Source: Saururus chinensis
Taxonomy: Eukaryota; Streptophyta; Magnoliopsida; Piperales; Saururaceae
Assembly: GCA_035235625.1 (NCBI GenBank)
Contig: CP141149.1
Location: 33,597,753-33,661,752 of the forward strand
Direction: 5' to 3'
Length of the DNA stretch: 64,000 nt
The position numbers were made by a program, and so were the translations under genes. Shown here piece after piece: positions 8,265 to 63,900 of this stretch (positions are counted from its first letter, which is position 1; every line of letters begins with the position of its first letter). Below the pieces are notes generated by a model that saw only the letters and a program-made list of their open reading frames with translations, was not told the DNA's origin and searched no databases.

Positions 8265-9155
8265 CATCAAACGCCTGTGACATAGAAATGGGACTTAGTG
8301 GATAACTCCACTGTTAATTCTGCTAGTGTAGTAAGACAGTTTCAAATTCAAGATTGGTTTGACAATTTTGTTCTAAATCAGTTATATCGAATTTAATTTA
8401 AAATTCTGTTTTATGTTCCATCATATTCCCGGTGGACTTCGATTTTATGAAATTCGATTTTATAATTCAAGAATGATTTGAAATCTTATTTTGTTAATAT
8501 AGTGTCAGACTTGATCTGAATTCTTATTTTTATGAATTTCTATTTTGAATTAGTCGGAAATGTTTATTATGAATTCGTTGCACGATTATTTAGCAACCTC
8601 GATTTCAAATAGCATGTCAAAATTATTTTCAGCAATGATAGAATTTCCGAGCAACTACTACACACCACAATATGGGATGTGAGGTGTTTGTGGATAGTTC
8701 TACGGCAAATTCTACTGATATTTTAACACAAGATGTACTTTTGAAGTATCTGTATTTGTAAAATAGTGGACCTACCTCAAATGAAACACTAAACACTCGC
8801 GGTATGGGACACAAGTTTTTAGTGGATCACTCTTGGGCTAGTTTTGCTGGTGTGTTGAAATTTAATCCAACTATTTTCAAAGACAGTGGAATTTCCTTAG
8901 AGAAACTGCTAAATACTCGTGGTATGGGACGCGTGGTATTAGTGGTCCACTCTAAGGTTGAGTCTACTATTGGATTTAAGATAGAAATTGAATTCAAATG
9001 TTCTGTGTTTTGGAAAAATGATTGTCAAGTTATCTCGATGGATAATAAAATTACTGCGGAAAAACCATCAAACGCCTGTGGTATGAGACATGGGGGTTAG
9101 TAGATAGCTCCAATGTTGATTCTACTCATATATTAAGATAGATTTCAATTTCAAG
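8265..9155 (+). repeat. Degenerate tandem modules in the retrotransposon internal region
   Basis: Four to five diverged units share the order AAACGCCTGTGGTATG, GGG-C/A-C..., TTAGTGGAT, ACTCCA...GTTGATTCTACT. Clear occurrences begin near 8270, 8660, 8795, 8910 and 9067. Reading frames are not conserved between units, so this looks like non-coding repeat expansion rather than a repeated protein domain. Confidence 0.5.
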
Positions 9156-9619
9156 TCTGGTTTGATTTGAAATAATTATTTTGAGTATGAAGTAACTCTT
9201 GAATGTACGTTTTGACCTAAATGTGTGACACATTTATTTTAAGTTTTCTACTGCTTCTGTGAAAAAGAGTATAATTGATTTCTGACTTATATTCTGTCCG
9301 ATATTTTAAATTTATTTTCTGTCAAATGCTTTAAATCTCGAATGCCTCTATGATTTAATTCAATTATGATTCCTCTTGAATGATTTAATCTCCGTAAAAA
9401 GTATATTTTCTGTCATATGTTTTAAATTTTGAATGTTGCTGTAAAACGATTATTAATGTTAATTTCTAATTAAGATGTTTCATTTGAATTTCTGAAGGAT
9501 AGTTATCTGGTATAAAGTCCAGGACTATCAAATAGTTATTTGGTATAAAATCCAAAAACTATCGGAGCATCACTCCTTGATACCGCCAAGAAAAATAATC
9601 GGCACCGGCGCGCGCATGG

Positions 9620-28485: not shown

Positions 28486-31400
28486 CGGTACCAGGAACAG
28501 CGAAATCCACTGACCGAGCGAAAACCTGAAAAAAGTTCCGAGCTTTCTTCCCACGCTGGACTCGCTGCGCTGCTGCTGGCTACAATACTCTCCTCTCTGG
28601 AGTGGGTGCGAGTCGCGCGATATGACTTTTAAATTTGAAACTTGGGAGAAGAGGGAAGAAGGGAGCGTGTGGGGATGGGGGCTTTTCCGAGTAGCCCGCT
28701 GGAGTACGGGAAATGTTTCGAAATAAATGGGTAATGAAAGAGCGAGCCCCCATCTTTATAGATATACAAATCTTCTTTATTAAATTTAAATTTAAAATGG
28801 TATAAGACTTATGGTGTATAAAAAATATAGTACTTAGGTCATACGCGCCTAGATGCATCTTAGATGTTTAAGACTTATTATTAAAAAAAAATTTGCTAAG
28901 AAGACAGACAGACTAGTGCATCCTTCGATGTTTACGAAGCTGTGTTTCATAGAGTTGTTTTTCTGAATTTATGGCTCACCCATCCGTTACATTTATAGCT
29001 TTGGGTTTATGTACCATGTTGATACGTACTAGAGGAGTGCCTGCCAAAAGAATGCTGAAGCTCATGAGCTTTTTGTAGGGATAGGGTCGAGGAGCAGATA
29101 GGTTTTCTATATAATTCACTTGTCTTATCTGAACAGTAGAAGAAGCTGAGAGAGGGCACTAGTTTGTGTATTATGGCCAGATAATGGTCTAATTTGTGTA
29201 TTACTGCCAAATAATGGTTTAAACCTCCTGCTGATGTTTTCGGCTGATCTTAGCTTGGGGTATGACTGTTAGATGTAAATTTAGTTGTAAGATCATCACT
29301 TAGGGATAAAGCATAAGGTAAATGACATAATAACTAAAGATAAAAGGCGTACTTGTTCCTTTGCTATATATAAATACAAGAGGATCCAACAATATGAATA
29401 ATACCAAGTTTTCTTTACTTTTTTTGTCAAGAATAGATGGGGAACCTTAAGATTGACAAGTGAGTGAAGGAACTAGGCATATATATAGCTTCATGGTGAC
29501 CCTTCCCATTAAAGTGATACCAATAAATGGCCTCACACACACCCCTTAGTAACCGGCCAAATTAATTTTGAATTTTTATTTTAATAAATACAAAATATGA
29601 CTTTTTATTTTCAAATAACTTTTCATTTTATTCATGACTTTTGGGTTTCCAATAGAGTCCACATGTGGGAACATACCAACAATGACATGTTCATACATTT
29701 TTTCCTATTAGTGTACTTTTGCATTGTCTGTGCAGTTGCAAATCCATTACGTAATTTCCTTGTTTTATTAGTTCTTTTTTCCCTATTCTGTAAACAAAGC
29801 CGATGTTGATTTTTTTTTTTTTTGCATGGCAAGTGAGTGAGTAAAAGAAAAAGAGCCGACAGAAGAAACCAAGAATTATATCAATAGATTCTAAAATCCT
29901 CATCTCTGTTCATGATTCTGATCTTGCTAGTAGACAATTAACTCTACCATGGTTACACTTTGCTCACAAATTAATTTACAGAAAATGGTGAGTGATAAAA
30001 AAATTGAAGTATAACTGTAGGACAGTAGGAGAACACCTTTGGGCGTGATGGTTGGATTTGGTTGATGAGATTGACCTTTTAAAAGTTCTCTAGAGCCAAT
30101 TGTAGCAAAATTTCATGGCAAGTACGATGCATTTTGGCTTATTTTGTTATTAACTTTTTATGATGGAGATGATCTAATCACATAAAAAAATGCACAGACT
30201 CAATCAAATTCATGTTGGATACAATAAGAATAACTGCAAAAGCTGTGTGTTCGTTTTGCTCTTAGCATTGTCAGAGATATGGAGACCATTGATGCTTAAC
30301 TACAAATGCTTATTGTTGCCATGCACTGCATCGACATAATACTTTGAAGATGAACTTGAGATCTAAAGTTCTCAATTAAGAATAATGTGATCCCAATAGT
30401 TATCACTATCATGTTTTTGCAACCTCCTGTTGGGTCTAAGCAATCTCGTTTGTTGCTTTCTTGATTGGCCCTTAAGGACCATTTAATTCTTGCTTAGGGT
30501 GTGATTAGATGAACTTTCAATATTAATAATTATCTAAGTTGTGTTTTAAGTATTGAGGTTAATAGAGGTTTTATGGATTTTTGGCTTATGTAATGTTGCC
30601 TTATGTACGCCCATTCATTTTTCACTTTCATTTCAACTTCTCTCAAATGTCCACTTTCTTGCCAAACAAGTATTTCAATTTTTTTGAAAATTAGTATGGT
30701 TCTGCCAAACAGGTTAACTCTTGAAATACAACAATTTCAAAAATTGGGACAAAATTCCAAATGCACTAGATCTTGGGGGCAAAAATGCCTCGAAAACAAA
30801 AATGCTCCCAAACAGGCTATTAAACCATCGAGCTGCCTGCTTCCTCTTCTTTTGCTGGCGCTAGTACTAGACACCCTAGTTGCTTCTTCCAGCCGCTGGC
30901 CTCTGCGCCGCCACTAGTTCCACTGTTGTGGCTTGCCTTTCCACTGCACGCATGCTCTAGTGACCACTGAAATGGTGGTTTGGTCATTCGTGCTCTAAGA
31001 CTAAAAACTTTGTTTTACTGGAACATGTGCAGAGTGAGATGGGATCAGAGGTGATCAGTGAGGAGCACCTTCACTGATTACCTCCGGCCAAGTTCAATTT
31101 ACATCCTCTGGAATGACCCAGCTTAGTGGTGTTGAGGCTTTTGGCAAAATCCATTGTAAGGTATAAAGTTCAACACTTATATTACAAATCCTTAATTATA
31201 TTGATAGAAGTTAAGATTTTTTTTTATTTGCGGAGAGAAAGTGGAATTGTATGTATGGTTCCTTGTGGAGAGAGAGTACCAGTTTGTACTGTTTTGTTTG
31301 AGAGATGTGGTTATTGGATAATGAATGCCCTTTCATGTTCAGTAGTCGACTAGGTGTAGTCTACGGGAGAGAACCTTTGTGCCTTGGGCTGTTTCAATTT

Positions 31401-36929: not shown

Positions 36930-38986
36930 ATTTTGGCGGCCTGGATTCTGCTGTGTAGTTTAACACACCGCGTCATATATACATCAACTAGGAAGACGAA
37001 CGGTTACAATGCCATAAACGAATTCAAGTGGATTATATTTGCATCAGGTGACCCGCGGGCAAAGTATAGCAAATATTGCGTGCCATATGGGCGAGCTCTT
37101 CACTGACTACAGTGATTACGTAATTGTAGTCGCGTCAATGTGCAATAGTGAATACTACTGTCATGATGACATAATCTCTGCAGTCATCCCATGAACAACT
37201 AGGCAAAGAGCGGATAAAGAAGGCCGCAGAAGAAGTCATCTTGGCTGGTCAGGAATAGGAGTCAAGAAACGACCAGGTAATTAGAGAAGACTTGACTTGG
37301 AGCTAGCACACATACAAGTGAGATGAAATACTTGAAGGAGGTTCATCTACCAGATCGGTAGTATACACGTTACCATATTAAGATGGGTGGGTTTATGGTG
37401 AGAATGCAAAAGTCATCCCTTCTTCCTATTTTCCTAACTACTAACACCTATAAATGCGTCTAGTGTGATCGATCTTCATAACAAAACCACTACCACTGCC
37501 CACTGCCCACTGCCCACACAGGTCTTCATATATATTACATAAGAAATCAATATCCCCTTATGTACCACGTTCGGAACTAATACAATCTGCAGGCATGGGG
37601 CCCGCCAATCCGCGCTGCATTTGGTCAACTGTCACAATAGTTTCCTTTCTGCCAAAACCACCCAAACCGAAAATGAAAAGGAATTGTTGAGGAGGGAGCT
37701 CATCTGGTAACTTCAAGACTTCAATACGCAATGGCAGTGGCAGTGGGTCCCTTAATGGACGCAAAATAGGGACATCACATCCCGTAACCCTTTATCGTCA
37801 GCCGCCCCTTCCCAGGGCAAGCCGGCGAAAAACCAACTACATGTTCACTCACGCAGCGCAACCAGTCCAAATTTGTACGTCTTTCGACTCGATTCAATTA
37901 TATCCGTACCAAGTGGGTGACGACGAAACCAGCCAAAGCTTCCATCCACTGATCCTCTTGTTAAATAAGATCACCATTCCTTTGGACGACCTTGCTTTGA
38001 CACCATGTCAGAAAAATCAAAATTGTTGTTTGCCTTTAACCCACTCCATTTTAGCTTTCACCCGCTGCCATCAGGACTGACTAGTTCCATTGAACAACTA
38101 AAGTTTGTATTGTGTATTGTCACCAGTTGTGATTCCGGATAAAGAATTCAATCACTTCTCTGAAAATTCGTTGTGGGTAGGAAGGAACAGGGGAAGAGGT
38201 GAACCGAATCGAATAAACATTTGCAAGCTGAAGCAGCGGCATAAACGGCTGGCCATTAACTAAAGGGGAAGACTTTACAACGAAGACTCGGGTCGTTGCT
38301 CTTTATACGTATAATAATGTTATAAAGAAAGCCCAAGCAGGCAACCCGGCCGCAACGCCACGGCAGCATCGAAGAGAGAATTCTCTCATCGTTTATCCTG
38401 GAGTTTGCAGAATTAGATTGACTAGACACGCAAGAGACGAAAACGAGCCAGGCCGGAACTCCGGAGACGTCGAAGAAGAAGGATCACGTATCAGACGGGG
38501 AATGTCAGTCTGTACTCTTCATTATATCTTCCAATTCAGCAAGTTATGTGGCCCGATTATGAAAGCCCACCTCCTGAATCCTCCCCTGTTTCATGCCCAG
38601 ATCGTCAATTACTAGCACGCTCTCGTTGAATACCTGCGTATTTTGTTGATAGGTAAAGTATCTGCAATCGGTCTGAATCTCTAGCAAGTTTCTCAATCTC
38701 TCTCTCTCTCTCTGTACACAGGATTTTGATTTCCTGAATTTCAAATCGTCACATTTCTTGGCGGAAAGGAGGTTCTTATTTCAGTTTCATCTGAACGGGC
38801 TCTTCTCTTGTTTGCGGTCGATTATTCTTCATATTCCAATTCTACGCATATCTTCTTTCTTCTGATCTTCTCCTTTCGCACCCAATTCTGCTTATGTTTC
38901 AATATTGTATAGTTCGTCCTGTTTATTCTTCCCCGAGCAATTTGCGATTCTCTTCTAATTTGAATTGATCCTGTTTCAGACTAGAG
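36930..38986. other. Intergenic DNA and probable BTB gene 5' region
   Basis: No confident gene. A minus-strand ORF at 37558-37764 (68 aa, contains FLFIFGLGGFGRKETIVTV) has a plausible protein-like composition but no recognised family. A CT microsatellite lies at 38698-38715, a common feature of plant 5' regions. TTTCAG followed by ACTAGAGATG at about 38975-38989 suggests that a 5' untranslated intron ends just before the BTB start codon. Confidence 0.4.
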
Positions 38987-40321
38987 ATGCCGAATCCGAG
39001 AGGGCGGGTGCGGTTCAACGTTGGCGGCAAAGTCTTCGAGACCACCTCCACTACCCTGGCCAACGCCGGCCGCCACTCCATGCTCGGCGCCCTGCTCGAC
39101 GACCACTGGAACATCAGGCCGGATGCCCCCGACGAGTACTTCATCGACCGGAACCCCCGCTGCTTCGCCGTCCTTCTCGACCTCCTCCGCACTGGCGATC
39201 TCCACATCCCCCCCAACCTTCCCGAGAAGCTCCTGTACAGAGAGGCCTCCTTCTACGGCATCCTCGACCACGTCCGCTCCGCCAGGTGGGGCCCCTTCGA
39301 CGGCAACCGCCTCATCCTATCTAACTCCGTCACCGGACGGGCCCCCGGGGACGGGACCGCCATCTGCGCCGGCCCCAATGGCGGCTGCTGCGTGGCCCAC
39401 GGCAGCATGGTCCACGTCTACGATTGGATGCTAGAGGAACATTCACCAATTAACCTCAATTACCAGAGGATCAACGACGTCGGCTACGTGGATTCAGACA
39501 ACATCGTCGTCACTGCTTGTGAGCGGCCCGGACGGGGGGACGGCGGGATGGCTGTGTTTAGCTCCTCCTCCGGCCATCTCAGGCACAAGTTCCAGGTGAG
39601 CCATGGCGATCAAAGCAAGAGCTTTACTGCTGGAGCTCTGAGTTTTAGCCCGGAGAATGGGAGGATCTTTGCTAGCTGCAAGGGAAGGAGCAACGAGTAT
39701 GGGATAGGAATGTGGGATCAGGAGACTGGTAAACAGGTCGATTTCTTCTATGAATCTCCAGGTTGGTCACTGGGGGATGCTGATAAACTCCAATGGCTTA
39801 ATGGGTCCAACTGTTTGATGGTCACCACTCTGTTTCCGAAGAAGGACAACTGTTACATCAGCTGCTTGGACTTCAGGGACAAGAACATGGTGTGGTCCTG
39901 GTCCGACCATGGTGCACCCCGGACGCTGGACGAGAAGAGGGTACTGGATGCGATCGCCATGGAGGAGAGCTGTTCGATCTGCGTGGTGAACCAGTACGAT
40001 GATCTGGGGTTCATGGATTGGAGGGGCAACAATGGTGGTGGGGGTGTGAGGTGGAGCTCTAGGAGTCGGATCATGAAGGGGCGGCTGCCGGACGAGATGT
40101 GCAATCCCAAGCTGGCGGCGAATGGAGGACAGCTCTTCTCCTCCATGAACGATAGCATCTCGGTGTTTTGCGGGCCGGAGTGGGTGTTGACGGCTCGGCT
40201 GGGCAGCAGCTATGGAGGTTCCATCTGCGATTTCTCCATAGGAGGGGACCGGCTGTTTGCTCTCCACAGTGAGGAGAACGTATTTGATGTGTGGGAGACG
40301 CCCTCTGGTCCGGTTCTCTGA
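38987..40321 (+). CDS. BTB/POZ (KCTD-type) protein with WD40-like C-terminal region
   Basis: One uninterrupted exon of 444 aa. Residues 7-105 are a potassium-channel-tetramerisation-type BTB domain: RVRFNVGGKVFETT at the start, YFIDRNPRCFAVLLDLLRTG in the middle and LLYREASFYGI at the end. Residues about 130-440 form a beta-rich region with repeated W/D-G patterns (GMWDQETGKQVDFFYE, VFDVWETP), like the YVTN/WD40-like domain of Arabidopsis BTB proteins such as At2g24240 and At4g30940. BTB proteins of this class generally act as adaptors for CUL3 ubiquitin ligases. The substrate is unknown and that role is inferred. The gene is strongly GC-rich at third positions, unlike its flanks, and intronless in its coding part. 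The start codon context AGAGATGCC is acceptable and starts right at the domain. It appears intact. Confidence 0.92.
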   Translation: MPNPRGRVRFNVGGKVFETTSTTLANAGRHSMLGALLDDHWNIRPDAPDEYFIDRNPRCFAVLLDLLRTGDLHIPPNLPEKLLYREASFYGILDHVRSARWGPFDGNRLILSNSVTGRAPGDGTAICAGPNGGCCVAHGSMVHVYDWMLEEHSPINLNYQRINDVGYVDSDNIVVTACERPGRGDGGMAVFSSSSGHLRHKFQVSHGDQSKSFTAGALSFSPENGRIFASCKGRSNEYGIGMWDQETGKQVDFFYESPGWSLGDADKLQWLNGSNCLMVTTLFPKKDNCYISCLDFRDKNMVWSWSDHGAPRTLDEKRVLDAIAMEESCSICVVNQYDDLGFMDWRGNNGGGGVRWSSRSRIMKGRLPDEMCNPKLAANGGQLFSSMNDSISVFCGPEWVLTARLGSSYGGSICDFSIGGDRLFALHSEENVFDVWETPSGPVL

Positions 40322-47775: not shown

Positions 47776-47784
47776 TAATAATAA
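47776..47784. repeat. 9-bp target duplication of the MULE (left)
   Basis: TAATAATAA at 47776-47784 recurs at 56352-56360, directly outside the two inverted repeats. Nine bases is the typical Mutator duplication length. The sequence is low-complexity, so chance agreement is possible. Confidence 0.6.
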
Positions 47785-47935
47785 AGAAATTTTATTTAAA
47801 TAATAATTTTAAAAAAATTATTTACCAAATTAATTTACTTTATAAAATATTTCTTATAATGGTATTATTTTTTGCCACGTAGGTGCTAGTTAAACTGTTG
47901 GTGCCTATGTACTTTTTTTATAAAAAAATATATGA
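47785..47935. repeat. Left terminal inverted repeat of the MULE
   Basis: AT-rich, about 150 bp, and a diverged reverse complement of about 56205-56351. The pairing is clearest over TTATTTAAATAATAATT and GGTATTATTTTTT. Confidence 0.7.
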
Positions 47936-48099
47936 TTTCGTCCTTTGGCATCGTTTAGAATGACAAAATCATAATACATTACTTACGTCGATTTCATCCT
48001 TCTAAATGATGAAATTGTCATATTTCGGCCTTTAATATGTCTATGCCAAATGTGATTTCGTCCTCTTAAATGACAAAATCGTCTTTGTTTTTAACCTGA

Positions 48100-49020
48100 T
48101 TCCGCTTCTCCGCTCTAGTTCATCTTGCATTTATTTCTGCTCTGTGTTCGTTCCCTTTTCCGCCCCACTACTGTGCTTCGTGTTTGAGCACTACCGCCAA
48201 GATCCCATCCTCCGGTGTCCTTTGCCCTCCCAAATCCCGTTCTTCGTTGTATTTCATGTTTGTTTTCCCTAATTCTGCTAGTGTCCTTTATCCCAATTTC
48301 AATTTTGGGTGTTCATTGATTTCCCATCCTCTGGCTTTGTTTAACTCGTGAGCAACTTGGGTGGTGCCTGTAATTGCGGGCTGTGATTTCAATGCGACCA
48401 AGTTGATAAGATGCCGACATGAAAAATTTTAAAAACCAATAAAATGTTTGTGCCAAATTAATAAACACAGCTACTCTTCCTAATTATTCTTTCCTCCAGC
48501 CATTAGGACAAAATTGTCCAAGGTCGATTTGCCTCTTTATTTACTCTTTAATTAAATGTTGTTGTGGTTTTTAAATGCCGAAATAGGACAAGAAAATTTG
48601 GTGTATAAAGAAAAATAACCCAACTAATTCTAAATTAATTAGTTTCTAAATTACTTTATTTTAGGAGTAATGATGCTAGGGGACTTGATTGGTCAATAGA
48701 GTCATAGGGAAAAACATCTCCTCTTAGGAGGAGAATTGCATCCTTCAAAATAGTCTCTTGCTTATGATGGTTTTAGGAGATTGGGCATCACGACTACAAA
48801 TATGACGAGGATTACCCATGTAGGCTTTAGTGTGAGCTACTTTTTATCAGGTAGTAAAAATTTTCTTTAAACAATCTTTTGTCATATCTACCATAGCCAC
48901 CCTGTATACTCCGAGAGTGGAAGTGATAATTAGAAAACAAACAAGAAAAATTGGGGAGTATATAGTTAATAGGATCAACAACAACGACTACGAAGTGATG
49001 TCAATCATGGTCGAAAGGTT
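48100..49020. other. Leader-like sequence inside the MULE
   Basis: Bases 48110-48400 are pyrimidine-rich and less AT-rich than the surroundings, like a 5' untranslated leader or a captured host gene fragment. No transposase catalytic region (DDE) or other protein family can be read in this stretch. Confidence 0.3.
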
Positions 49021-49089
49021 GTGGTGAATGCGAGGGTTCATACTTTTACATTCAATATTACTCAGGTTTATTTGTATCTTTGCTCACAT

Positions 49090-49404
49090 CTTATTGTTAT
49101 GTGGGGAAAGCGGCGGGAGCTTATACAGGTAGGACTTTGTTACACATCTACTGCTTACAAAAATGTGTATTCAACACAATTCTATTCTCCTCGTGGTCAG
49201 GAGTATTGGGAGAGGGATATACCTTATGTGTTATTTCCTCCGAGAGCAACAAGCGAACCCAGTCGCCCACGGTCCGTTCACATTAGAAATACAATGGACT
49301 GTATGACTATGGAAAGAGATGGTAGAGGAGGGTATAAATGCGAGAAGTGCAAACAAAGTGGACATAATAGTAAATCATGTAGAAACCCTCATGTTGATTG
49401 GTAA
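49090..49404 (+). pseudogene. MULE transposase C-terminal fragment with zinc knuckle
   Basis: The frame ending at 49404 reads CYTSTAYKNVYSTQFYSP, then VLFPPRATSEPSRPRS, and finally CEKCKQSGHNSKSC, a CX2CX4HX4C zinc knuckle four codons before the stop region. This order (YS..AY..Y segment, a proline-rich bridge, then a zinc knuckle) is typical of the C-terminal end of MuDR-type transposases. The catalytic core and the MULE and SWIM domains upstream are not recognisable. Translation from an internal start is unlikely; treat it as a remnant. Confidence 0.65.
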
Positions 49405-49580
49405 ACATATAATACGTCTTTTTATTTTTTTATTTTAGGTATAATTATGTGTTCCTAGTGATCTTAATTATCTGTATATCATATGGATTATGTGGAGCCT
49501 TTTTATAGGCCAGGCCCGATTGATGAGTCAGTACTTGTCCAGCAGGAGTCGCATATGTCGGCTTCCATTTGGCGATGAGA
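49205..49580 (+). other. Junction between transposase remnant and PMD gene
   Basis: Only about 85 bp separates the transposase stop (49404) from the first PMD-like residues (RPGPIDESVLVQQESHMS, read from about 49508). Both are on the same strand. The spacing suggests that the PMD gene is a second gene of the element or once formed a joint transcript with the transposase. Confidence 0.35.
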
Positions 49581-51779
49581 GGTATGATAAGTTGATAACT
49601 CTTTATAAAAATTATTTTATTTTTTTAGATTATAAATTACATTGGGTTATAATTTTAAAATTTATTATAGGACCCTAGGTGCCTTGAGTGCACTAAACAT
49701 TTTATATATCTTTGTCAATGGCCTGTAGATGAGCGTATGTTACTGTATATCGAGCGAGCAGGATTTAGTCGAGTGAGCCTTCGATGGCTGCTAGGCGAGT
49801 TTTGTGAGCTCCTAGTGGATGCTACAAAGGTAGTTATCGAGCAACATGTACGGCTTATTTATTACATTTACTTGGGGCCACGATATTTGTGGATACCACG
49901 AGTAGCCATGTACATGTTTCAAATCTCTCCCTACTTGCAGACTTCAACATGGTGGGTGCTTATTCATGGGGCAAGTGCTACTCTTACTTTTTTATACCAA
50001 GAGTTAGGGAAAACATGTCAGACCATGACCTTGGGGATTGGAGGTTGTTTAAACCTTCTTCAGGTAAATAAATTCGTAACTTCAAATATTTTTGTTGTAT
50101 GTATAATTCCTTCATTTTTTTAATAACTTTTATCATATTTTGTGACATAGTTATAGTTGTGGGAGCATTTACACGTCAGTCGATCAAGTATTTAGATGGG
50201 TAACTTAGTCGAGGGTGTTCTATTAGGAGCGAGGTAGGCTCTATTTATTTTTATCACTTAATTTTTTTAGCAAGGTTTTATTTACATATGTTGGAACTCA
50301 TTTTTAAAATTTAACTCCTTAAGGTGGAATGTTCAGAAAAGGAAAACCAAAAATCCACAAGGAGTCCTCCGATTATATAGAGGGGAGTTAGACCACGAGC
50401 GGCCATATCATGTAATTTTATTTTATTATTAACTTGTTTACAATGATTATAAGATATGTGAGGTTATTTAAACTTAATTATCTTTATATATTATATAGGT
50501 TATTTGGCAGTTGCACTCACCGGGAGTATTAGTTGTGTTACCTCCTGTATGCACCCACGGTCGAGATGTGTGGCTATCGTGAATGCCACTAATCTGTTAT
50601 GAGAGTATAGAGATGTATATGTTGGACTGTGTAATGCTCCAGTTTAACATAGAGCAAGTGGACCCACCTTCTACCATTGAGTTTGTCTATCGCATCACTT
50701 GACGGGGCACCATATTACTGATTGGGTTATACATCATGCAACATATATCGCTTAATGAGATGATAGGAGAGCCACTATTATCCATGGGGAGATGACTACA
50801 ATATAGCAAGATATTCATAGCGCATATATGCAGTGGTATTTATCGATTACACGACAATATATTTTACCGCATAATGATGTAGAGGAGATGACATATTAGC
50901 CTAGAGGTACGTTCGAGGCAGCTTTGGTAAGTATAACTTTGTTAATTAAGACACATATTATTTTCTTATTTCTTATTTTTATAATTTTTAATTTATTTTT
51001 GTATAATTTTGTTTAGCGCAACATACACATGAGCATTTGACTGACATAATTAACACATGTACTTTGGGTGAGGACTTTTTAGCATTATGTTAGTTGATGC
51101 TTAAGGAGCATGATTGTCACGCCCCGGCGATGCCCGACCCGAGCCGAACCCGGTCCAAGGGCTAGTCAAGCGCGCGGGGGCGACGAAGTGAAATTGAGAA
51201 ATGATCTAGCGGAAGACTTAACCCTAACCACGAGCGATTAACAGAAATACGGAGTACGCACAATCCTTTGAGCAAGAGTAAATAAAAGGGAAGAAAGAGT
51301 GTTGCTTATCACAAAGTAAACAACTAATCTCAAACCCACAAGCTTAGTTAATTAAAGCCCACACCGGCTCAAAATAAGTCATAAGCATCACAACTGTAAA
51401 ATGTGACATAAATCCAAAACAAAGAACCCTACACAAATGTTCTAACATAAAGCATAAAACCCAAAGAAAATAAGTCACACAATGATCTCCATGATCACAT
51501 CCAAGCCATCTCCGACCTTTCCTCAAAGAGGAGATCTTGTTCGTTTGCGTGTCGCACCACTCAGCCCCAAATCAAAACACAAGAAAGAGGGGTGAGTTTA
51601 ACAAACTCTGCAATGGTTTTTAATATTACTAGTAACATTGAAAATACAATAGCATAGCAATATAGTCATTTAGATCAAAGATTTACATGATGCATCATTT
51701 TCTGATCACACATACATATCACCTAACACTGCATCATGGTGCATAATCCACATAATGTCATTAACATCATAACATCCTG

Positions 51780-52115
51780 CATGAAATGTATCTCTAACAT
51801 ACATATTCTATCATGCATTATATCAAAATCAACCTGCATGGATATATCTCTAGCATACATATTCCCACATGCATCATATCATAATCAACCTGCATGGATA
51901 TATTTCTAACATACATATTCCCACATGCATCATATCATAATCAACCTGCATGGATGTATCTCTAATATACATATTCCCACATGCATTATATCAAAATCAA
52001 CCTGCATGGATGTATCTCTAACATATATATTCCCACATGCATTATATCATAATCAACCTACATGGATGTATCTCTAACATACATATTTCCACATGCATTA
52101 TATCATAACAACCTC
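51780..52115. repeat. Tandem repeat in the solo LTR, 56 bp x about 6
   Basis: The unit reads CAACCTGCATGGATATATCT, a CATACATATTCCC stretch, then ACATGCATCATATCATAAT. It recurs every 56 bp from about 51780. The period equals that of the array at 19955-20330 in the related LTR sequence. Confidence 0.75.
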
Positions 52116-52220
52116 CATGAAGGAGTAATCACAAATTTGGTGTCACATAGACGGGAACATAGACAAGGCCACGAAGGCTTGTCATGGTCCAAAATTCTAC
52201 ACAAGAATTAAAGAAAGTTC

Positions 52221-52466
52221 AGGGTTGTCAATCCCTAATGTTGCTCGCCCTGGACGATCCTGGCCAAGGATGTCCCATTCTCACACAGAGAATCTAGAGC
52301 AGGGGTGTTCGCCCAGGGACATCTCCTGCGGAGGGAAGAGCCTAGGGTTGTCAATCCCTAATGCTGCTCGCCCTGGACGATCCTGGCCAAGGATGTCCCA
52401 TTCTCACACAGAGAATCTAGAGCAGGGGTGTTCGCCTAGGGACATCTCCTGCAGAGGGAAGAGCCC
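52221..52466. repeat. Direct duplication of 123 bp in the solo LTR
   Basis: 52221-52343 and 52344-52466 are almost identical. Each starts AGGGTTGTCAATCCCTAATG and ends GGGAAGAGCC. The high identity points to a recent duplication. It produces a 107-codon ORF with a repeated sequence that has no known family. Confidence 0.85.
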
Positions 52467-53472
52467 GAGTTCTCACACAGAGAACCCTAGAACACGTGGT
52501 AGCGGGGTGCACACGGCATACCACACTGGATTCTCAGGGTCCAGATGACACTCATAATAACATTCTCACAATCCGCAAGACAAGTACACAACTCGTCCTC
52601 ACATAATCCCATTTAATTAGACTCAACCCGGGGAGTGCACTCATTCCACACGGGAACTCAAATCAAAACATGTCCTTTCGGACCAATCAACTTACGATTA
52701 ATCCACGACCGATCAATTCGGCACACAATTTCACCACATTGCATCCAATCGGTCAAATTCGATTAACCTCAATGAAGCCTCAATTTGAAATCCATTCTCA
52801 TGATGCATGCAGCATGGTACATACGTGGGAAAGGCATACATGAATCCTAATCCATAATAAGTGCTCTTATCAGCCCCTAATGCATCATTCATAATCACAA
52901 TATCAAGCTTCAACATTATCATTTAACCTCTACATGTGTGTGTGTAACTAGTAGAAGTACTTCACTCAATGCATTTCAACATGCTTGAAATTAACTTACT
53001 ACTACACTACACATGTGAATTTCCATCTAAACATGAATTCCAGCAGAAATCATAGAAGAAGAATCGTTGAAATAGTATCCCAATTCAAATCTCAACCACA
53101 AAGGCTAGACACATATAAGATCATTCATTTCATCATTGAGTCATGACATTCACCAACATCCGCACACCAACTAACCACACTCTATCATGACAAATCAGTC
53201 CAATAATAAGTTGTAGTCTTACTGAAAATATGCTTAACCAAAGGGAATTAACCATTCATAATTTCAAGATGACATTTCCAACATCATGCCACAAAACATA
53301 AGCCATTCTATAAATCTCTAATCATATGTCCCAACTTCACAACCTCAATAGCATGCATTTTCAGGAACATAATATGGCTCAAAACACTCCACATTCACAT
53401 AAAAATGGCAAGCTAAAGTGAAATCATCGAAATAAACATCATATGCACAACATACAATTTTACTGTGTAGTC

Positions 53473-53632
53473 GTTCGAACGCTCTTCAGGCTGTTTGATC
53501 GGTTAAACGTAAAAATTTAAAATTCACAGTTTGGTCGTTCGAACGCCTAGCAGGCCATTCGATCGGCTGAACTGGAAAACTGTCGTTCCGACAGTGTTGC
53601 CGTTCGAACGCCCAGAAGGGCCGTTCGAACGC
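53473..53632. repeat. Cluster of GTTCGAACGC palindromes
   Basis: GTTCGAACGC occurs four times (53473, 53537, 53602, 53623), with related words GTTTGATCG, TTCGATCGGC and GTTCCGACA between. The core TTCGAA is palindromic. It is a short degenerate tandem array inside the LTR. Confidence 0.65.
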
Positions 53633-55136
53633 CAACAAGGCAGAACTGAATCATCTTCTTCCTTTCGCAAATCCAAACCGAAACACCATTGATAACACTT
53701 CAAATTCACATCTAACACCCTAATCATCATCAAAAGTCCTTCTTGACTTTCAGAATGTTAAACCATATCATAATAATGCAAAACCCTAAGAAATCGGGAT
53801 TAAATATATTCATTTTCTAATCATGTCATTAACACACCAATTTAAGCAACTCCATTTAAAATAAGCCAAAAATCAAGAATTTTACCATGGATAAACTGAG
53901 ATTTCGAAGACCCATTACCTTAGCACTCGATTAAGCTTGGATTGGAGAGTCACCCTTCTTGAAATCCTTGAAAACCCAATGAGTTTGAATTAAACTCTAT
54001 TAAAAATCGATTTACCAAAGAAATCCCTAATTAAAACCTAGATCTAGGGCTTGTTGATAGTAAAAATCGAATTTTGAATGTTATGGTTTGTAGTAAAACA
54101 CAAATCAGTAGTTTTTGATGTCCAAAAACGAATTGAAACAAGGGGAAAATGGTAGATTTGGAAGAGATTAAGAAGAAAACTAGGTTTAGTGCTTAATTGG
54201 AGTAGGCTTACCTTAATCTGCTTCTAATTCGGGCCTAATTGGGGATTAGGCCAGACCTCCCTCCTTAGCCTATTCCCAAAAATGTAAATGGCTTAGGTTT
54301 GCTCTTTTATAGTAAGGATTGGGGTATGTATGGGTAAGTTACGGAGTGTAAATAGAAAAAGTAGGCTAAAAATAGGTATTTTACAAATTTAAGTACTAAT
54401 TAAGCCTAAGAAAATTTTGAAATTTTTTGTATAACCTTAGGTAGATGTCTGGGTCCATTTGACCCAAAAACCAAAATTTCGACGGTGGGGCCCACAGAAT
54501 CCCACCAAAACCCTAATTTTTGGAAAAATAGTAAAAATTCAGAAAAATCCCAAAAAATCACATTTGTTTTAAAATCACTTCAAATCACTAATCTTAAAGT
54601 TGATTTTGGTTAAAACTGTCACAAATACTATTTATTCACGAAATCGCTGAATAAATCAGAAAACACGTAAGTCTCACGATAATCAATAATTAAAGGAAAC
54701 CAGAAACCGGTTTAGAGACGAGGGTCCTTACAATGATGATGTCCTTCATAGCTTGTCACTGCTTCAGTCGGTGATTATGGATGTTCATAACAATTATCCC
54801 ATCGACAGGTTGCTCAGACACAGCTGAGGCACGATTCATTCCCTGATATTCCATCTTCATTAGTAGCGCATAGCTCTCCTCCCTGTTCATCATTTTCAGC
54901 CACTCCACATGTAGCTTATCCTCAGTCATATCCGATATTATATTATAGACGACATCAATTAGCTAGTGTTGAGCCATCTATTACTTATGCGGAGCCAGGG
55001 CCAGAGCCACATCCAAAGCCAGAGCCACATCCAGAGCCAGAGTTAGCTTATCCTCAACCATATCCGATATTATATTATATACAACATCGGCCAGCTCGTG
55101 TTTAGCCATCTATTACTTATGCGGAGCCAGAGCCAA

Positions 55137-55578
55137 AGCCACATCCAAAGTCGGAGCCAAAGCCACATCCAGAGCCATAGCCGGAGCCAGAGCAAGCTGA
55201 TCATGAGGAGCATGTAGACCATGAGGAGGAGCTCGTACGACAACGTCGGGGTCAAGGACGTAGTTGATCATGACATTGAGTGCATTAGATTTATCATATG
55301 CTTCTTTTGAACTAAACATTTTATTAACGCGTGATATAATATATTTTATAAATATTTATATCTTACGCCACATCCAAAGCCGAAGCCAGAGCCTCATCCA
55401 AAGCCAGAACTAGAGCCAGAGCAGGCGGATCATGAGGAGCGGGTAGACCATGAGGAGGAGCTCGTATGGCAGTGTCAGGGTCGAGGACATAGGAGATCGT
55501 GACATTGAGTGTATTAAATTTGTCATATGTTTCTTTTAAACTAAACATTTTATTAACATGTGATGTAATATACGCTTA
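55137..55578. repeat. Direct duplication of the PMD 3' end
   Basis: 55137-55347 recurs with divergence at about 55368-55578. Both contain CACATCCAAAGCCG, GATCATGAGGAG, GACCATGAGGAGGAGCTCGT and the 3' flank CTAAACATTTTATTAAC. The second copy has decayed further. Confidence 0.7.
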
Positions 55579-55679
55579 TTTTTATGTTGTATAGATGATG
55601 GTTGATGTCGATAACTTTAATGTTATGTAAATAATAGTTAATGTAGATAAGTTTGATTTTTGTAAATGTTAATTTAAAC

Positions 55680-55935
55680 ATATGTATGGAATGTGTGTGG
55701 AATAAATGAACAGGGACAAATGTATTTGTATAATGTGTGTTGATTGAATTTATGATCGTATAATATGTGTGGAATGAATGACCAGGGGCAAATGTATTTG
55801 TATAATGTGTCGATTAAATTTATGATTGTGTTAATGTGTTGAATGAATGAACAGGGACAAATGTATTTGTATAATGTGTGTCAATTTAATTTATGATTAT
55901 ATAATGTATTGAATGAATGAACAGGGACATGTGTT
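55680..55935. repeat. Tandem repeat, about 80 bp x 3
   Basis: The phrase AATGAACAGGGACAAATGTA followed by TTTGTATAATGTGT recurs at about 55705, 55780 and 55850, with a partial copy at 55915. It lies between the PMD tail and the right end of the MULE. Confidence 0.65.
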
Positions 55936-56204
55936 AAATTTAGTTTAAAAGATTTTTTTTTTAAATTTTGAATTAGATTTCGTTATTCTAAAGGACAAAA
56001 TCAGTTAAAAACCAGACATGCGTGCTTTATTGTATTACTGATTTTGTCATTCTAAGGGTGACAAAATCGGCTTAACCTCTTGTACTTTAGAAGGACGGCC
56101 TTAAGCTTATTTCGTAATTTTAAAGGATGACATCGGCTTAACCCGTTATAACCCTATTTCGTCATTTAGAATGATAAAATTAACTTAAACTTGTTTTGTC
56201 CTTA

Positions 56205-56351
56205 TATAAATTTTTTTTAAAAAAAACCACATAAGCGTTAGTGGCTTGGCTAGCACTTATGTGATAAAAAATAATACCACTTTAAAAAATACTTTTTAAA
56301 ATATATTAATTTAATAAATTTTATTTTAATTATTATTTAAATAATTTTTTC
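56205..56351. repeat. Right terminal inverted repeat of the MULE
   Basis: Reverse-complement partner of 47785-47935. The matching 9-bp duplication TAATAATAA follows at 56352-56360. Confidence 0.7.
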
Positions 56352-56360
56352 TAATAATAA

Positions 56361-57975: not shown

Positions 57976-60900
57976 ATGGCGCTCTTCCGGAAGTTCTTCT
58001 ACCGGAAGCCGCCCGACGGGCTTCTGGAGATCTCCGAGAGAGTTTACGGTACGTGGGGGGAGCTCATTGTTTGTTTTTTCTCAGTGATTATGAATGTTGA
58101 ATTTTTTGAGTTGAGTAATGAAGCTGTCATTTGAGGGAAGACCGAGTTGAATTTGTTTTTTTGTCTCCTTTTACTTTGGCTTTTAGCATCCGTTACGCAC
58201 ATTGTTAGCTGGGGAGGTGAAATTTTTTAGAGGGTTGCAATTATGGGACTTTCTTACGCCTTAGACAGTTGCCGAGCTGCATTTTGTTTTTCATTGCCTC
58301 TGATTGTATTACTTATCTAATGGCATATTGTTAGATGATCTCATATTAGGATGACAATCTATCTTCTAACATGTTAAGATTTGGAAGTTTTTTTTCGTTT
58401 TCTATGAAACTTTCCACTTTTTCCTTGGTTTACAATTACAGTTTTTCATTGCTTTCTTTTTTTCTTTTTTGTCTTATTGGATGAGCTTCAGCTCGGAAGT
58501 ATCCTCATTTATCGGAGAATTAAACTCCAAACATCTGTAGTAAAATTCTAAGGCGTTGGGACATCAAGCAATACCCAATCGCTTTTAGAGGATGTAAAAC
58601 AGTTAAAAAAGGGGAGAAAACAACTTAAGATGGAAGAACACCTATCTCATTGCATGCACGAAACTGGATAACGAGATGAGTGTTATTCTTTCTCAAGTTG
58701 ACTCGTATTATCTGGTATGTGCAGTATTTGATTGCTGCTTCTCCACCGATGTTCTCGAAGAAGATGAGTTCAAAGTGTACATGGGAGGTATAGTGGGTCA
58801 ACTACGCGGCCATTTTCCAGATGCATCTTTCATGGTGTTTAATTTCCGAGAAGGAGAGAGGCCAAGTCAAATCTCTGATATATTATCTGAATATGACATG
58901 ACTGTGATGGATTATCCTCGGCATTATGAAGGATGTCCTTTACTCACAATGGAAATGATTCACCACTTCTTAAGGTCGAGTGAGAGCTGGCTCTCTCTTG
59001 GTCAGCAGAATGTTCTATTAATGCACTGTGAACGAGGTGGCTGGCCAGTTCTAGCTTTCATGCTTGCTGGTCTTCTGATCTACAGAAAGCAATATACAGG
59101 GGAGCAGAAGACACTGGACATGATATATAAGCAAGCACCACGCGAGCTTTTACAACTTTTGTCTCCGCTAAATCCAATTCCATCACAGTTGAGATATCTC
59201 CAATATGTTTCGAGGAGGAATGTAGGATCTGAATGGCCGCCTCTGGATAGAGCACTTACATTGGATTGTGTAATTCTTCGAATGATTCCTAACTTTGATG
59301 GGGAGGGAGGATGTCGACCCATATTTCGAATATATGGGCAGGATCCTTTTATTGCCACTGATCGGACTCCAAAAGTTCTGTTTTCAACACCAAAAAGGAG
59401 CAAAAGTGTTAGGCCTTACAAACAGGTAATTTGGATTTCACTGTTTTTTTTCCCTTTTTTATCTTGTTTCTTATTAAGCTTCTTTATTTAGAAAGACAGG
59501 TTCTTAAGTTTCATTCAAAATGCAATTGTTATTTCCATAAAATTTTGGCACATGATTTTCACAAAAGCAAGTATGGCTTATCAGAATGGCATGCATTTCA
59601 AGTTAGTATCTCTTGTCATAGACGTCAGCCTGTGCCTTTTAAGCCACCTTAATTCAGAAGTTTGTTACAAGTAGGCATGGTTCGAATTCCCATGGTCCAT
59701 GAACAGTTGAATAGCCTTACAATTGTGAAAGCATTATGGAAGTTGATGGCAGAGGCTGTTAGAACCTCTGTGTGTGTGTTTTTTTTACATGATCCACTAT
59801 GAGGAAAATATAGTAGTCTTGCTGAAAGGACATTTTGGATAATACAAGTTTCTTAAAAAAATCATGAAGAGTGCATATAACGGCCCCTTTTTTTATTAAT
59901 ATACAAATAAGGGTTTTCATGCTTGCTGGTCTTTTGTTATCTTATTCTTTTTTTTCTTCAAAAGCTTGCTTGTTGGTCAAATTTCTTTCTCCTTCCCTTT
60001 TTTTGATGGAAATAAAATTATTTCTCCTTCCTGAATAGTTGATTTGTTGCAGTCAGATTGTGACCTTGTTAAAATTGATATCCACTGCCACATTCAAGGC
60101 GACGTTGTGCTGGAGTGCATTAACCTTGATGAAGATCTTGAACGTGAAGAGATGATGTTCAGAGTCATGTTCAACACAGCATTCATTAGGTCAAATATTT
60201 TAATTCTTAACCGTGATGAAATTGACATCCTATGGAATGCTAAGGACCATTTTCCTAAGGATTTTAGGGCAGAGGTGCGTCTCACTATCCATTTATCCTT
60301 TTGAAATTAACACCTTATTTTTCTATGCTGAAAGAGCTTTTTTTTGTCAGTTCATGGTGGCAGTTTAATGTTTCTCTCTCCCACCTGAACTACATGTCTG
60401 TTGTTTTTTTGTGTTTTCTGAAGGTTCTCTTATCAGAAATGGATGCGGCTTCTTCTCTAATTACTGTGGATTTGGCTGGTGGGGAAGAAAAGGAAGGGCT
60501 TCCAATGGAAGCATTTTCTAAAGTACAAGAAATTTTCAGCACCGTTGATTGGTTGGATCCCAAAGCAGATGCTGCGCTTTCTGTAATTCAGCGCATAACC
60601 TCGACAAATGTTCTGCAAGAAAGGTTAGAATCAGTTTTTGCACAGGATGATGAAGACAAGGGAAGTCCACCAGATGCTCTCCAAGACAAGGTTAAGATGG
60701 AGATGGATACTCTTCAGCAGCCAGTTGATGATAAACTTCTAGAGAATCCGTTGTCTGACTCTTCCAAAAATAAAATCAAGGCATCTGGGACTCCAACTCT
60801 TGAAAAGTCCTTTGAAACTGATTTAGTCAAACACGGGATTCGACCTCAAGAAGTGGTTGCTGCACTTCAATCCTCCTCCCAGCCAAAAATTATCTCTCAA

Positions 60901-63900
60901 CGAGTCCCACAGTCATCTTTGTCCAACCCTGTATCTTACTCTAATTCTTTGCAGGGCTCACCATTGTCCATGTCTCGCTATCATAGTGCACCCTCGATTC
61001 TTGGAATCACAGATCTTCTTCAAGATCATATGGCCTATGGCAGTAAAGAGGTTGCTTTGTCTGAGAAAAGATTCCCTCCTATAACATTTTCTTCAGTTAT
61101 TGAGCAGTCAAGTTTAACTGATATAATAAAACCCGGTTTAGTTGAACCCTCAAAACCTGTATCATCCTTGCAGCCTCCATCATCTCCTCCAGAAGTTCAT
61201 GTGACTGATGTTTCCAAACCTGTTCCTTCTCCAAGTCCACTGACACCAGTACAAGCTTTAACAGCATTGGATACTGCTTCTATAACTTCTCAACCACAAC
61301 CACAGAATTCAGTCCATCCTCCCATCTCACTCATGTCATTACAAACTCAATCACCCTCAAAACAATCTCCATTACAGTCAATGCTGGCTTCCTCTTCTCC
61401 TCCATCACCACCACAACCACCACCTCTGCCACAGGTACCAACATCCCCTTCCCTGGCCCATTTGTCGTCTCAGGCACAATCTTCCTTAAGACAAGTACCT
61501 TCTTCAAAATCAAAGTCAACCCCTCCCCCACCACCCCCTCCTCCTCTGGTAAAAAAAGACATCTTGCCGTCAACTGTGCCTCCTCCCCCACCACTACCTA
61601 TAGTAAAAAAGGGCACCTCACTGTCAACTCCTCTTCCACCACCTCCTCCTCCTCCTCATACCAAGAAAAGCAGCCTATCCTCTAATCCTCCTCCTCCTCC
61701 ACCACCTCCTCCTCCTCAAGCCAAGAAAAGCAGCCTACCATCTAGTTCTCCTCCCCCACCACCACCTCCTCCTTTAGCTAAAAGAGACAATGTGCCTTCT
61801 ATTGTTCCTTCCCCTCCGCCACTGCTCCCTACATCTGGAGTGAAGCGAACTACTCCTCCTCCACCTCCCCCTCCTATACACCCTGCGTCTGCCTCAGGAC
61901 CCAATGTTGCACCATCTGTACCACCCCCACCCCCACCACTTCAGTCCTCTAAAGGTCCTTCATATGTTCCTCCTGCCCCCCCGCTTATTCCCGGAAGTAA
62001 TTCACCTTTCTCAAAGGGAATAGGTACAGCATCTCCTCAATTAGGCAGCAGTGGAGTGGGGCCCCCTCCACCTGGAGTATTTCCAAGCTTCAGCACAAAG
62101 GGCCGTCAACTCTCTCGCTCTGCAAGCCCAAAGACTCAGTCAACGCCCAAAAGAGCTTCTCTAAAGCCACTGCATTGGGTCAAAGTAACAAGAGCAATGC
62201 AGGGGAGTCTATGGGCAGAGTCACAGAAACAAGATGAAGCTTCAAAGTATCATGATTTTCTTTAGTTCTGTGATACTTTATCATCATGAATCTTATGATT
62301 CTGAACTATGCGATATTCCTATTTCTTCTCGTGGCAGGGCACCAGAATTTGACATGACAGAACTTGAGAATCTTTTTTCAGCTGTAGTGCCAAATTCTGA
62401 TCAAGGGAAGTCAAGTGGTAAATCCGGCCGTCGAACATCACTCGGCTCTAAACCTGACAAAATACACTTGGTATTTTCTTTGTTATTATTTTGTATTGAA
62501 AGTTTGACTGAAATATGCATGATGACATTATCTACATTCTCTATTTATTGATTAAATATGAAATATCAAATTCTTTTATTGCCTTCCAATTCGAAATTTT
62601 GGTGAGTATTAGTCAGGACAAACTGTATTTAGGCAAACTGAAGACTTCATTTGTGCATTTTGGGCTTTTAATTGATCATGAATTGCAGGGTTACATGGTG
62701 ATTTTGCAATCTGTTGACCTCAATATGCTATAATCGTTTCTTTTAGTTGAAAAATGATTATGTCAATTCCATGACCTTCAGTATTTTGGGAGCTTAATAT
62801 TGTTTTGTTCTCTAATTGCTACATGTGCATTCAGATTGATCTAAGACGGGCTAATAATTGTGAAATTATGCTTACCAAGGTTAAGATTCCATTGCCTGAC
62901 CTAATGGTAAGCTAATATACCTATGAATCTGTTTTTATACTTTGACTTCTTGCATGGATTTTGGTGCACATTGTTTATGTTTCACAATATCTGTAAGGCA
63001 CTAAATTTTTACGGTTCCATAGTCTCATCCATGGTAAGCTAATATGTAATCTTGTTTTATCCATTAACTTTTTTGTGTTACATTGCTATATTGTTTATGC
63101 TTCACAATATGTAAAGCAACAATTATTTTCGTGTTTTTATTTGAAACATTATGTATATTATTACAGGGCTCATTGCTGGCATTGGATGATACAATTTTAG
63201 ACGTGGACCAGGTCGATAACCTTATAAAATTCTGTCCAACGAAAGAGGAAATGGAGTTGCTTAAGGTATCTGTTATCTTGATGTATCTTTCTTATGGTTC
63301 TTGTATGTTCGTTTATGTTTATTATGTTGAGTTAGTCTGCATTCTAGTAATAAAAACAAGAGTTGATCTGTGTTCTATTCTGTGTCATCATGTGAGATTT
63401 ATTGAAATCATAATTGTGATTTTGATATATTTTGAAGTATCTAAGAATGAATTTGGATTTCAGTGGCTCATATTGAATCATCATAATATGTGATTATTAA
63501 CTATCGATCAAAACCATCTCTATGTGTAACTTTGCTGTTATAAATTTGTTAGGGTTTTACGGGTGATAAACAAAATCTGGGAAAATGTGAACAGGTTAGT
63601 CAACTCCTCATCTCCTTCTGGCTCAATGATGCAATATTTTCTTTCTTTCTTCTTTTTATTTTCTTGCGGACAGTAGTTACTTAATATATGTGCATTGTTG
63701 TAATAGTTCTTCCTGGAGTTGATGAAAGTACCTCGTGTAGAATCTAAGCTCAGGGTCTTCTCATTCAAAATACAATTCCGCTCCCAGGTCATACTTATTC
63801 ATTATAGCTAAATTGTGATTCTATCTGAATGGATTTTAGAAGTCCACTTGATTCATTTTTATATGGTAATTTCAGGTTTCTGATCTTAGCAATAGTCTTA

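Follow-up and report, generated by a model that had tools for sequence, protein, structure and literature searches.

An element and its two genes

The question raised by this locus is whether a plant mobile domain (PMD) gene that lies directly behind a transposase remnant is a gene of the transposable element that encloses both, and what it might do there. The locus is part of a 64,000-nucleotide stretch of the Saururus chinensis genome (GenBank assembly GCA_035235625.1, contig CP141149.1; G000:C10:33597753-33661752), which we call the window; the genome searched comprises 516 Mb in 11 contigs. Our analysis confirmed a Mutator-like element (MULE) at 47785-56351 of the window, whose ends are long inverted repeats flanked by a 9-bp duplication and which contains a transposase tail and a PMD gene, and showed that its family is an abundant two-gene MULE, with a long member of 6.7-7.1 kb, that inserts with 9-bp duplications. 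The explanation that we favour, with a probability of roughly 0.6 for the whole of it, is a selected two-gene MULE with one transcript, whose PMD protein would act in trans against host silencing of the MAIN/MAIL type.

The features that the sequence-only reading had named at this locus were all recovered. At the element ends, a repeat scan of the window paired 47802-47933 with 56206-56337 in inverted orientation (132 nt, 74% identity) and, as a second arm pair, 47778-47824 with 56312-56358 (47 nt, 77% identity). The claimed 9-bp duplication, TAATAATAA, is present on both sides. Taken alone it is weak, as the flanking DNA is AT-rich and an internal match of 11 bp reached an equal score; the 9-bp match was preferred because it is positioned at the inverted-repeat ends, and six further copies lend it support, each having a perfect 9-bp duplication at matching ends. 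The transposase tail (48671-49404) shows 79% identity to the last 769 of the 2,055 bp of the main transposase frame of L018, a related copy, and contains a CX2CX4HX4C zinc knuckle by our by-eye reading, with Pfam scores below cut-off. Directly behind it on the same strand, the PMD gene begins with its own ATG at 49483. Here the sequence-only reading was right about the closeness of the two genes and wrong about the figure (~100 bp), as the measured gap is 78 bp.

What the window copy has lost can be read from its relatives. The L018 transposase frame is 684 amino acids long with zero stops and matches the MULE catalytic domain PF10551 (70 bits, cut-off 27.6), which lies in the part lost from the window copy, as well as DBD_Tnp_Mut (41 bits) and SWIM (23.5 bits), both over cut-off, and there is a Mutator-family match too. 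Its PMD matches PF10536 with 171.1 bits in exon 2 and 75.9 bits in exon 5; the window's PMD pieces reach 20.3 and 16.5 bits against a cut-off of 34.9, because 252 bp of exon 2 are gone. The gene is divided into six exons, whose GT-AG borders, read by eye, are retained in the majority of the 14 copies compared; in the window, exon 6 has AA where relatives have the splice AG. Joined, the PMD exons of L023 make 634 codons, counting the stop codon and including one stop; the tail is EP-rich and the end RG-rich.

A near-constant layout across the genome

The L018 transposase tail and PMD exon 2 were searched genome-wide, and the best 150 of 2375 and the best 150 of 2194 candidates, respectively, were compared. 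Between these two lists there are at least 78 same-strand pairs with the PMD downstream, of which 76 are 239-295 bp apart (mode 281) and two others about 3.5-3.7 kb apart. With the Pfam matches included, the PMD list grows to at least 221 places, and a downstream PMD stands beside at least 88 of the best 150 transposase places; none of these 150 has a PMD among the 221 on the other strand at up to 6 kb, and none has one upstream in its own orientation. Since the lists hold the best-scoring candidates, the figures for pairs are minimum values. When the 221 PMD places were distributed at random, the mean was 0.2 pairs and the maximum 2 in 200 runs. In maize MuDR, the two genes mudrA and mudrB are convergent.

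The junction between the genes is spanned by 19 of the 20 sequences that we aligned (L024, which has no junction, was dropped), and counts were read from the alignment rows. The transposase stop is the identical codon in 19/19 copies, the PMD ATG is retained in 18/19 (the exception being L014), and an AG stands five bases upstream of that ATG in 17/19, L010 and the window excepted. The spacer from transposase stop to PMD start measures 52-97 bp in the 19 copies. Conservation of both the stop and the start codon makes this look like two genes rather than a fusion. A family architecture of a transposase followed by a same-strand PMD with its own start codon is, in our judgement, as good as certain.

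A Pfam search of the genome for PMDs returned at least 186 matches (117 of 2740 candidates scored), and 16 stretches of ~9.9 kb were taken from the best PMD places, which makes them a non-random sample. Among the matches listed, most of these stretches align mutually across transposase and PMD, with L011, L022 and L024 as exceptions; L022 and L024 have little transposase left. Ends were examined at 15 loci, namely 14 fetched stretches and the window (L011 and L017 were left out), and seven of them, window included, have a perfect 9-bp duplication at matching ends; an eighth, L024, has one with a single mismatch. The sequence-only reading had proposed looking for copies with both genes, matching ends and 9-10 bp duplications, and six such copies were found (L018, L019, L021, L023, L012 and L010), all with a perfect 9 bp. 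It had also held that the association would be accidental if the ends never enclosed a PMD; they do enclose PMDs. The Pack-MULE class does not fit the family, as its long relatives have a transposase plus all six PMD exons.

Searching the genome with the window's 5' end gave at least 58 matches (40 of 1095 candidates scored). Of 30 loci read around these matches, window included, 20 have the family transposase beside the end or subterminal region, and two of these 20 (the window and L048) extend as far as the PMD; three loci (L031, L037, L046) have a PMD without transposase and seven have neither. These loci are only 3.2-3.6 kb long, so that a PMD behind a full transposase is out of view. L022, L024, L031, L037 and L046 are deletion derivatives with family ends and a PMD and with little or no transposase.

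The stretch L011 is of a different kind. It carries a different PMD type (76.3 bits, 4213-5520, plus strand) and a MULE transposase domain (87.3 bits, 8634-9583, minus strand), ~3 kb apart on opposite strands. This may be another association of a MULE with a PMD, its genes facing in opposite directions; no long inverted pair was found around its PMD within the fetched stretch.

Selection on both genes

Selection was estimated from pairwise ratios of nonsynonymous to synonymous divergence (dN/dS; NG86 on a MAFFT alignment of the 20 sequences), and these values should be read in the light of non-independent pairs, a crude method and inherited changes common to copies. For PMD exons 1-5 with the window excluded (171 pairs), the median dN/dS falls from 0.70 at dS <0.05 (12 pairs) through 0.44 (9 pairs), 0.41 (23) and 0.29 (44) in the next three bins of rising dS to 0.21 at dS 0.35-0.6 (64 pairs) and 0.21 above 0.6 (19). 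The transposase was analysed without the window, L024 and L022, because most of the gene is gone from these and the rest is poorly aligned. Its median over 136 pairs is 1.07 at dS <0.05 (11 pairs), then 0.41 (1 pair), 0.32 (32), 0.25 at dS 0.2-0.35 (76), 0.35 (2 pairs) and, above 0.6, 0.27 (14 pairs); with the three sequences included, the bin above 0.6 gives 0.63 over 48 pairs.

Ten chosen pairs without the window gave dN/dS of 0.18-0.28 for PMD exons 1-5, with no bootstrap upper limit over 0.39, 0.25-0.36 for the whole PMD and 0.18-0.31 for the transposase, and two pairs that contain the window gave 0.32 and 0.28 for PMD exons 1-5. As a control, a count in a wrong PMD frame yielded median values of 0.67-1.00 for the bins with dS over 0.1. 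We are confident that between subfamilies the PMD is under purifying selection, with dN/dS ~0.2, and the transposase alike. The pattern is that of genes constrained in the moving lineage and released after insertion. The two-gene unit suspected by the sequence-only reading is thus borne out by the near-constant spacing across the genome, the six complete copies and the purifying selection on the PMD.

Mosaic copies and arrays in the ends

Copies do not always have the same relationships in both genes. In 300-bp steps, identity between L013 and L023 is 91-95% along the transposase and 81-86% along the PMD; between L013 and L015 it is 85-94% in the transposase and 91-97% in the PMD. In trees of 18 sequences, the transposase of L005 and L013 falls near that of L006 and L008 (supports 0.93-0.98), and their PMD groups with that of L009 and L015 (supports 0.97-0.99). 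As read from the identity steps, the breakpoint is at about element position 3900-4000, not far from the boundary between the genes. This one mosaic group, which comprises two copies, suggests that element lineages can exchange the two genes. For the pair L023/L013, dS is 0.51 in the PMD versus 0.22 in the transposase; a faster rate in the PMD is disfavoured as the cause, because L013/L015 and L013/L009 show the opposite order of identity.

The ends carry half-sites TTTYGTC / GACRAAA, often paired as a palindrome 16 bp apart. They are found in both ends of 9/9 elements examined, at 10-21 per element, and there are none in 3.9 kb of the L018 gene region; 10 of the window's 44 half-sites fall in the 1.8 kb that the element's ends comprise. 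Such half-sites could be candidate binding sites of either protein.

What the PMD protein might do

In the explanation that we favour, a member runs from the 5' inverted repeat through a transposase gene of the MuDR type with its stop codon, a 52-97-bp spacer and the six-exon PMD, which in the long member has an acidic EP-rich and RG-rich tail, to the 3' inverted repeat. The PMD is the element's own gene, preserved by selection through amplification, as dN/dS and layout show. Most likely a single transcript from the 5' end would yield both proteins, the PMD start being reached either via splicing to the AG five bases upstream or via re-initiation. In the nucleus, the PMD protein would then act in trans to weaken MAIN/MAIL-type silencing of the element, perhaps by competing for partners, or perhaps through action on the palindrome arrays that the element carries at its ends. 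Taken by itself, a function of the PMD in weakening host silencing has, in our view, slightly less than an even chance. A more elaborate version, with the PMD as a trans-acting, VANC-independent anti-silencing protein that would recognise the palindrome arrays, be exchanged as a module and be built from host silencing machinery, seems rather unlikely.

Several observations weigh against the favoured explanation. None of the 20 aligned sequences has a stop-free PMD frame (1-11 stops each), so that no copy examined is fully open, and in none of the 20 are both frames open. No 9-bp duplication was found in 7/15 loci (L022, L014, L020, L013, L009, L015 and L016). Copies that have a PMD and little or no transposase mean that the tie of the PMD to a transposase does not always hold, and two of 19 copies (L006, L008) permit an in-frame, open splice between transposase and PMD. 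Finally, our results do not separate an anti-silencing role from a role in transposition.

This last point bears on the strongest rival, that the PMD is a transposition accessory unrelated to silencing, for example by binding the end palindromes or by aiding integration like maize mudrB. Selection on the PMD resembles that on the transposase, and the half-sites are confined in the way described above, to both ends of nine elements and not the gene region of L018; in addition, mudrB is apparently required for integration (PMC6446971). At the same time, host PMD proteins of known role act in silencing and gene expression (PMC5418596, PMC7156037), and the two roles may overlap. Both this rival as a whole and a direct role of the PMD in transposition appear unlikely to us, less so than the remaining alternatives.

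Transposase and PMD could instead form one fusion protein by splicing, as in grass and Amborella MULEs; MULE-PMD fusions are in print (PMC5418596), a GT overlaps the transposase stop in 19/19 copies, and most copies have an AG ahead of the PMD start. The in-frame, open junction of L006 and L008 comes from an AG that sits one base upstream of the ATG. However, 17/19 copies have no in-frame open junction from the near-stop GT to any spacer AG (donors further upstream lie outside this test), the usual GT-AG pair creates a stop, and the unspliced frame ends at the conserved stop codon, which makes a fusion improbable. Still less credible is a functionless passenger captured in the manner of a Pack-MULE. 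MULEs are known as carriers of gene fragments (PMC4583175), and at least one stop interrupts the PMD frame of every copy examined, but a six-exon gene in near-constant layout, under purifying selection between subfamilies at dS values as high as 0.9, leads us to reject this passenger on dN/dS and layout. Adjacency of a MULE and a PMD gene by chance, for which nothing speaks beyond the lone window copy, is refuted by the genome-wide pairing test (at least 78 pairs, 76 of them at 239-295 bp, versus 0.2 expected) and has a negligible probability.

Relation to known systems

MULEs with a PMD are already published, as is the anti-silencing guess, and the kind of element is known; what is new here is evidence for the PMD as a selected second gene, exchangeable apart from the transposase. 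The PMD was first described with a rice MULE (PMC5418596) and is said to occur only in angiosperms (PMC8616336), with mainly genic PMD-C in eudicots (PMC7156037). In tea, PMD genes yield phased small interfering RNAs that may repress PMD transcripts (PMC10673657).

The closest systems are again plant MULEs. A PMD is listed for seven plant MULE groups by Dupeyron et al. 2019 (MuDR-9_OS, MULE-Monocots, MDR, MUDRAVI2, MUDR and others; PMC6446971), which are alike in having a 9-bp duplication where one is given, long inverted repeats, SWIM and/or CCHC motifs, and the PMD as another motif or open reading frame. There, however, the PMD is often antisense, whereas here it is sense and downstream in all of the at least 78 listed pairs; their table is without selection, spacing or copy data, and the main text leaves 'mobile domain' unexplained. 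The grass and Amborella MULEs with PMD-C (Ikeda et al. 2017, PMC5418596) likewise combine a MULE transposase with a PMD and a proposed anti-silencing use, and represent two captures; their PMD-C is part of fusion proteins, whereas here two frames are split by a conserved stop and start. VANDAL elements with VANC (PMC5735166, PMC10398659, PMC13317346) are likewise MULEs with a second, trans-acting gene and non-coding repeats, but VANC is another protein, and loss of silent marks is experimentally reported for VANC and only guessed for the PMD. In the present family, the repeats seen that could be set beside those of VANDAL are the palindrome arrays of the ends. Maize MuDR, with mudrA and mudrB, also pairs a transposase with a second gene, and the function of mudrB is given as unknown (PMC6446971).

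Among open-licence titles and abstract openings, which amount to weak evidence, we found no published account of selection on, fixed layout of or module exchange of MULE PMDs. Escape from MAIN/MAIL silencing by means of a PMD has been a published guess since 2017, when anti-silencing use of a MULE PMD was called "tempting to speculate" (PMC5418596), and the idea is repeated in PMC8616336. This guess becomes testable with the present family, which has 150 or more places with a transposase and at least 221 with a PMD, a near-constant layout and measurable selection.

The window copy and its surroundings

The window copy itself is dead and cannot work, given that more than three fifths of the transposase are lost, 252 bp of the PMD are missing, both frames contain stops and a 3.6-kb solo long terminal repeat (LTR) is nested in it (Table 1).

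Table 1. Coordinates of features of the element copy, in window positions
Feature	Position	Strand	Remark
9-bp target site duplication, left copy, TAATAATAA	47776..47784	.	equals length of six relatives' perfect duplications
5' terminal inverted repeat and subterminal region	47785..48096	+	right limit chosen by analyst
Palindrome half-sites, 5' end	47936, 47962, 48056, 48072		within 47785..48096
5' subterminal non-coding region	48097..48670	+	common to other copies: L026 86%, L027 87%
Transposase remnant, zinc knuckle, stop TAA	48671..49404	+	matches last 769 bp of L018 main frame
Intergenic spacer, 78 bp	49405..49482	+	52-97 bp in 19 junction-spanning copies
PMD exon 1, own ATG at 49483, one in-frame TGA	49483..49581	+	
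PMD exon 2, 252-bp internal loss at 49765/49766	49671..50063	+	
PMD exon 3	50151..50233	+	
PMD exon 4	50324..50411	+	aligned 50324-50407; end taken from splice site
PMD exon 5	50499..50926	+	aligned 50500-50923; ends taken from splice sites
PMD exon 6, part 1, 5' of LTR insertion	51007..51109	+	aligned 51021-51103
5-bp LTR duplication ATGAT, left copy	51110..51114	.	
Nested solo LTR, TGTCACGCC...CTTACA, 3,618 bp	51115..54732	.	interrupts PMD exon 6
5-bp LTR duplication ATGAT, right copy	54733..54737	.	
PMD exon 6, part 2, acidic EP-rich tail	54738..55270	+	right limit approximate
3' terminal inverted repeat and subterminal region	55951..56351	-	left limit chosen by analyst
Palindrome half-sites, 3' end	55994, 56042, 56060, 56157, 56194		within 55951..56351
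9-bp target site duplication, right copy, TAATAATAA	56352..56360	.	equals length of six relatives' perfect duplications

Stretches related to this solo LTR are present in L016 and L030. Its interior contains tandem units at 56-bp spacing (51730-52164), several CGTTCGAACG palindromes (53462-53640) and, at 52221-52465, a duplication of 122 bp. The PMD tail likewise contains local duplications, one of 132 bp (54905-55168) and one of 206 bp (55138-55572), and between this tail and the 3' repeat there are four degenerate tandem units at ~70-bp spacing (55691-55934).

A tRNA scan of the 64-kb window found no tRNA genes. On the element's strand, with its first frame ~2.2 kb past the element, 58607-62265 is a probable formin-like host gene: 58607-59491 has a PTEN_C2 match (35.9 bits), and a proline-rich frame at 60268-62265, for which there was no Pfam match, has what we take to be the look of a formin. 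A BTB / At2g24240-like gene at 38969-40321 (562.7 bits) and a protein kinase exon at 27850-28755 (44.7 bits) show that the surroundings of the element are gene-bearing.

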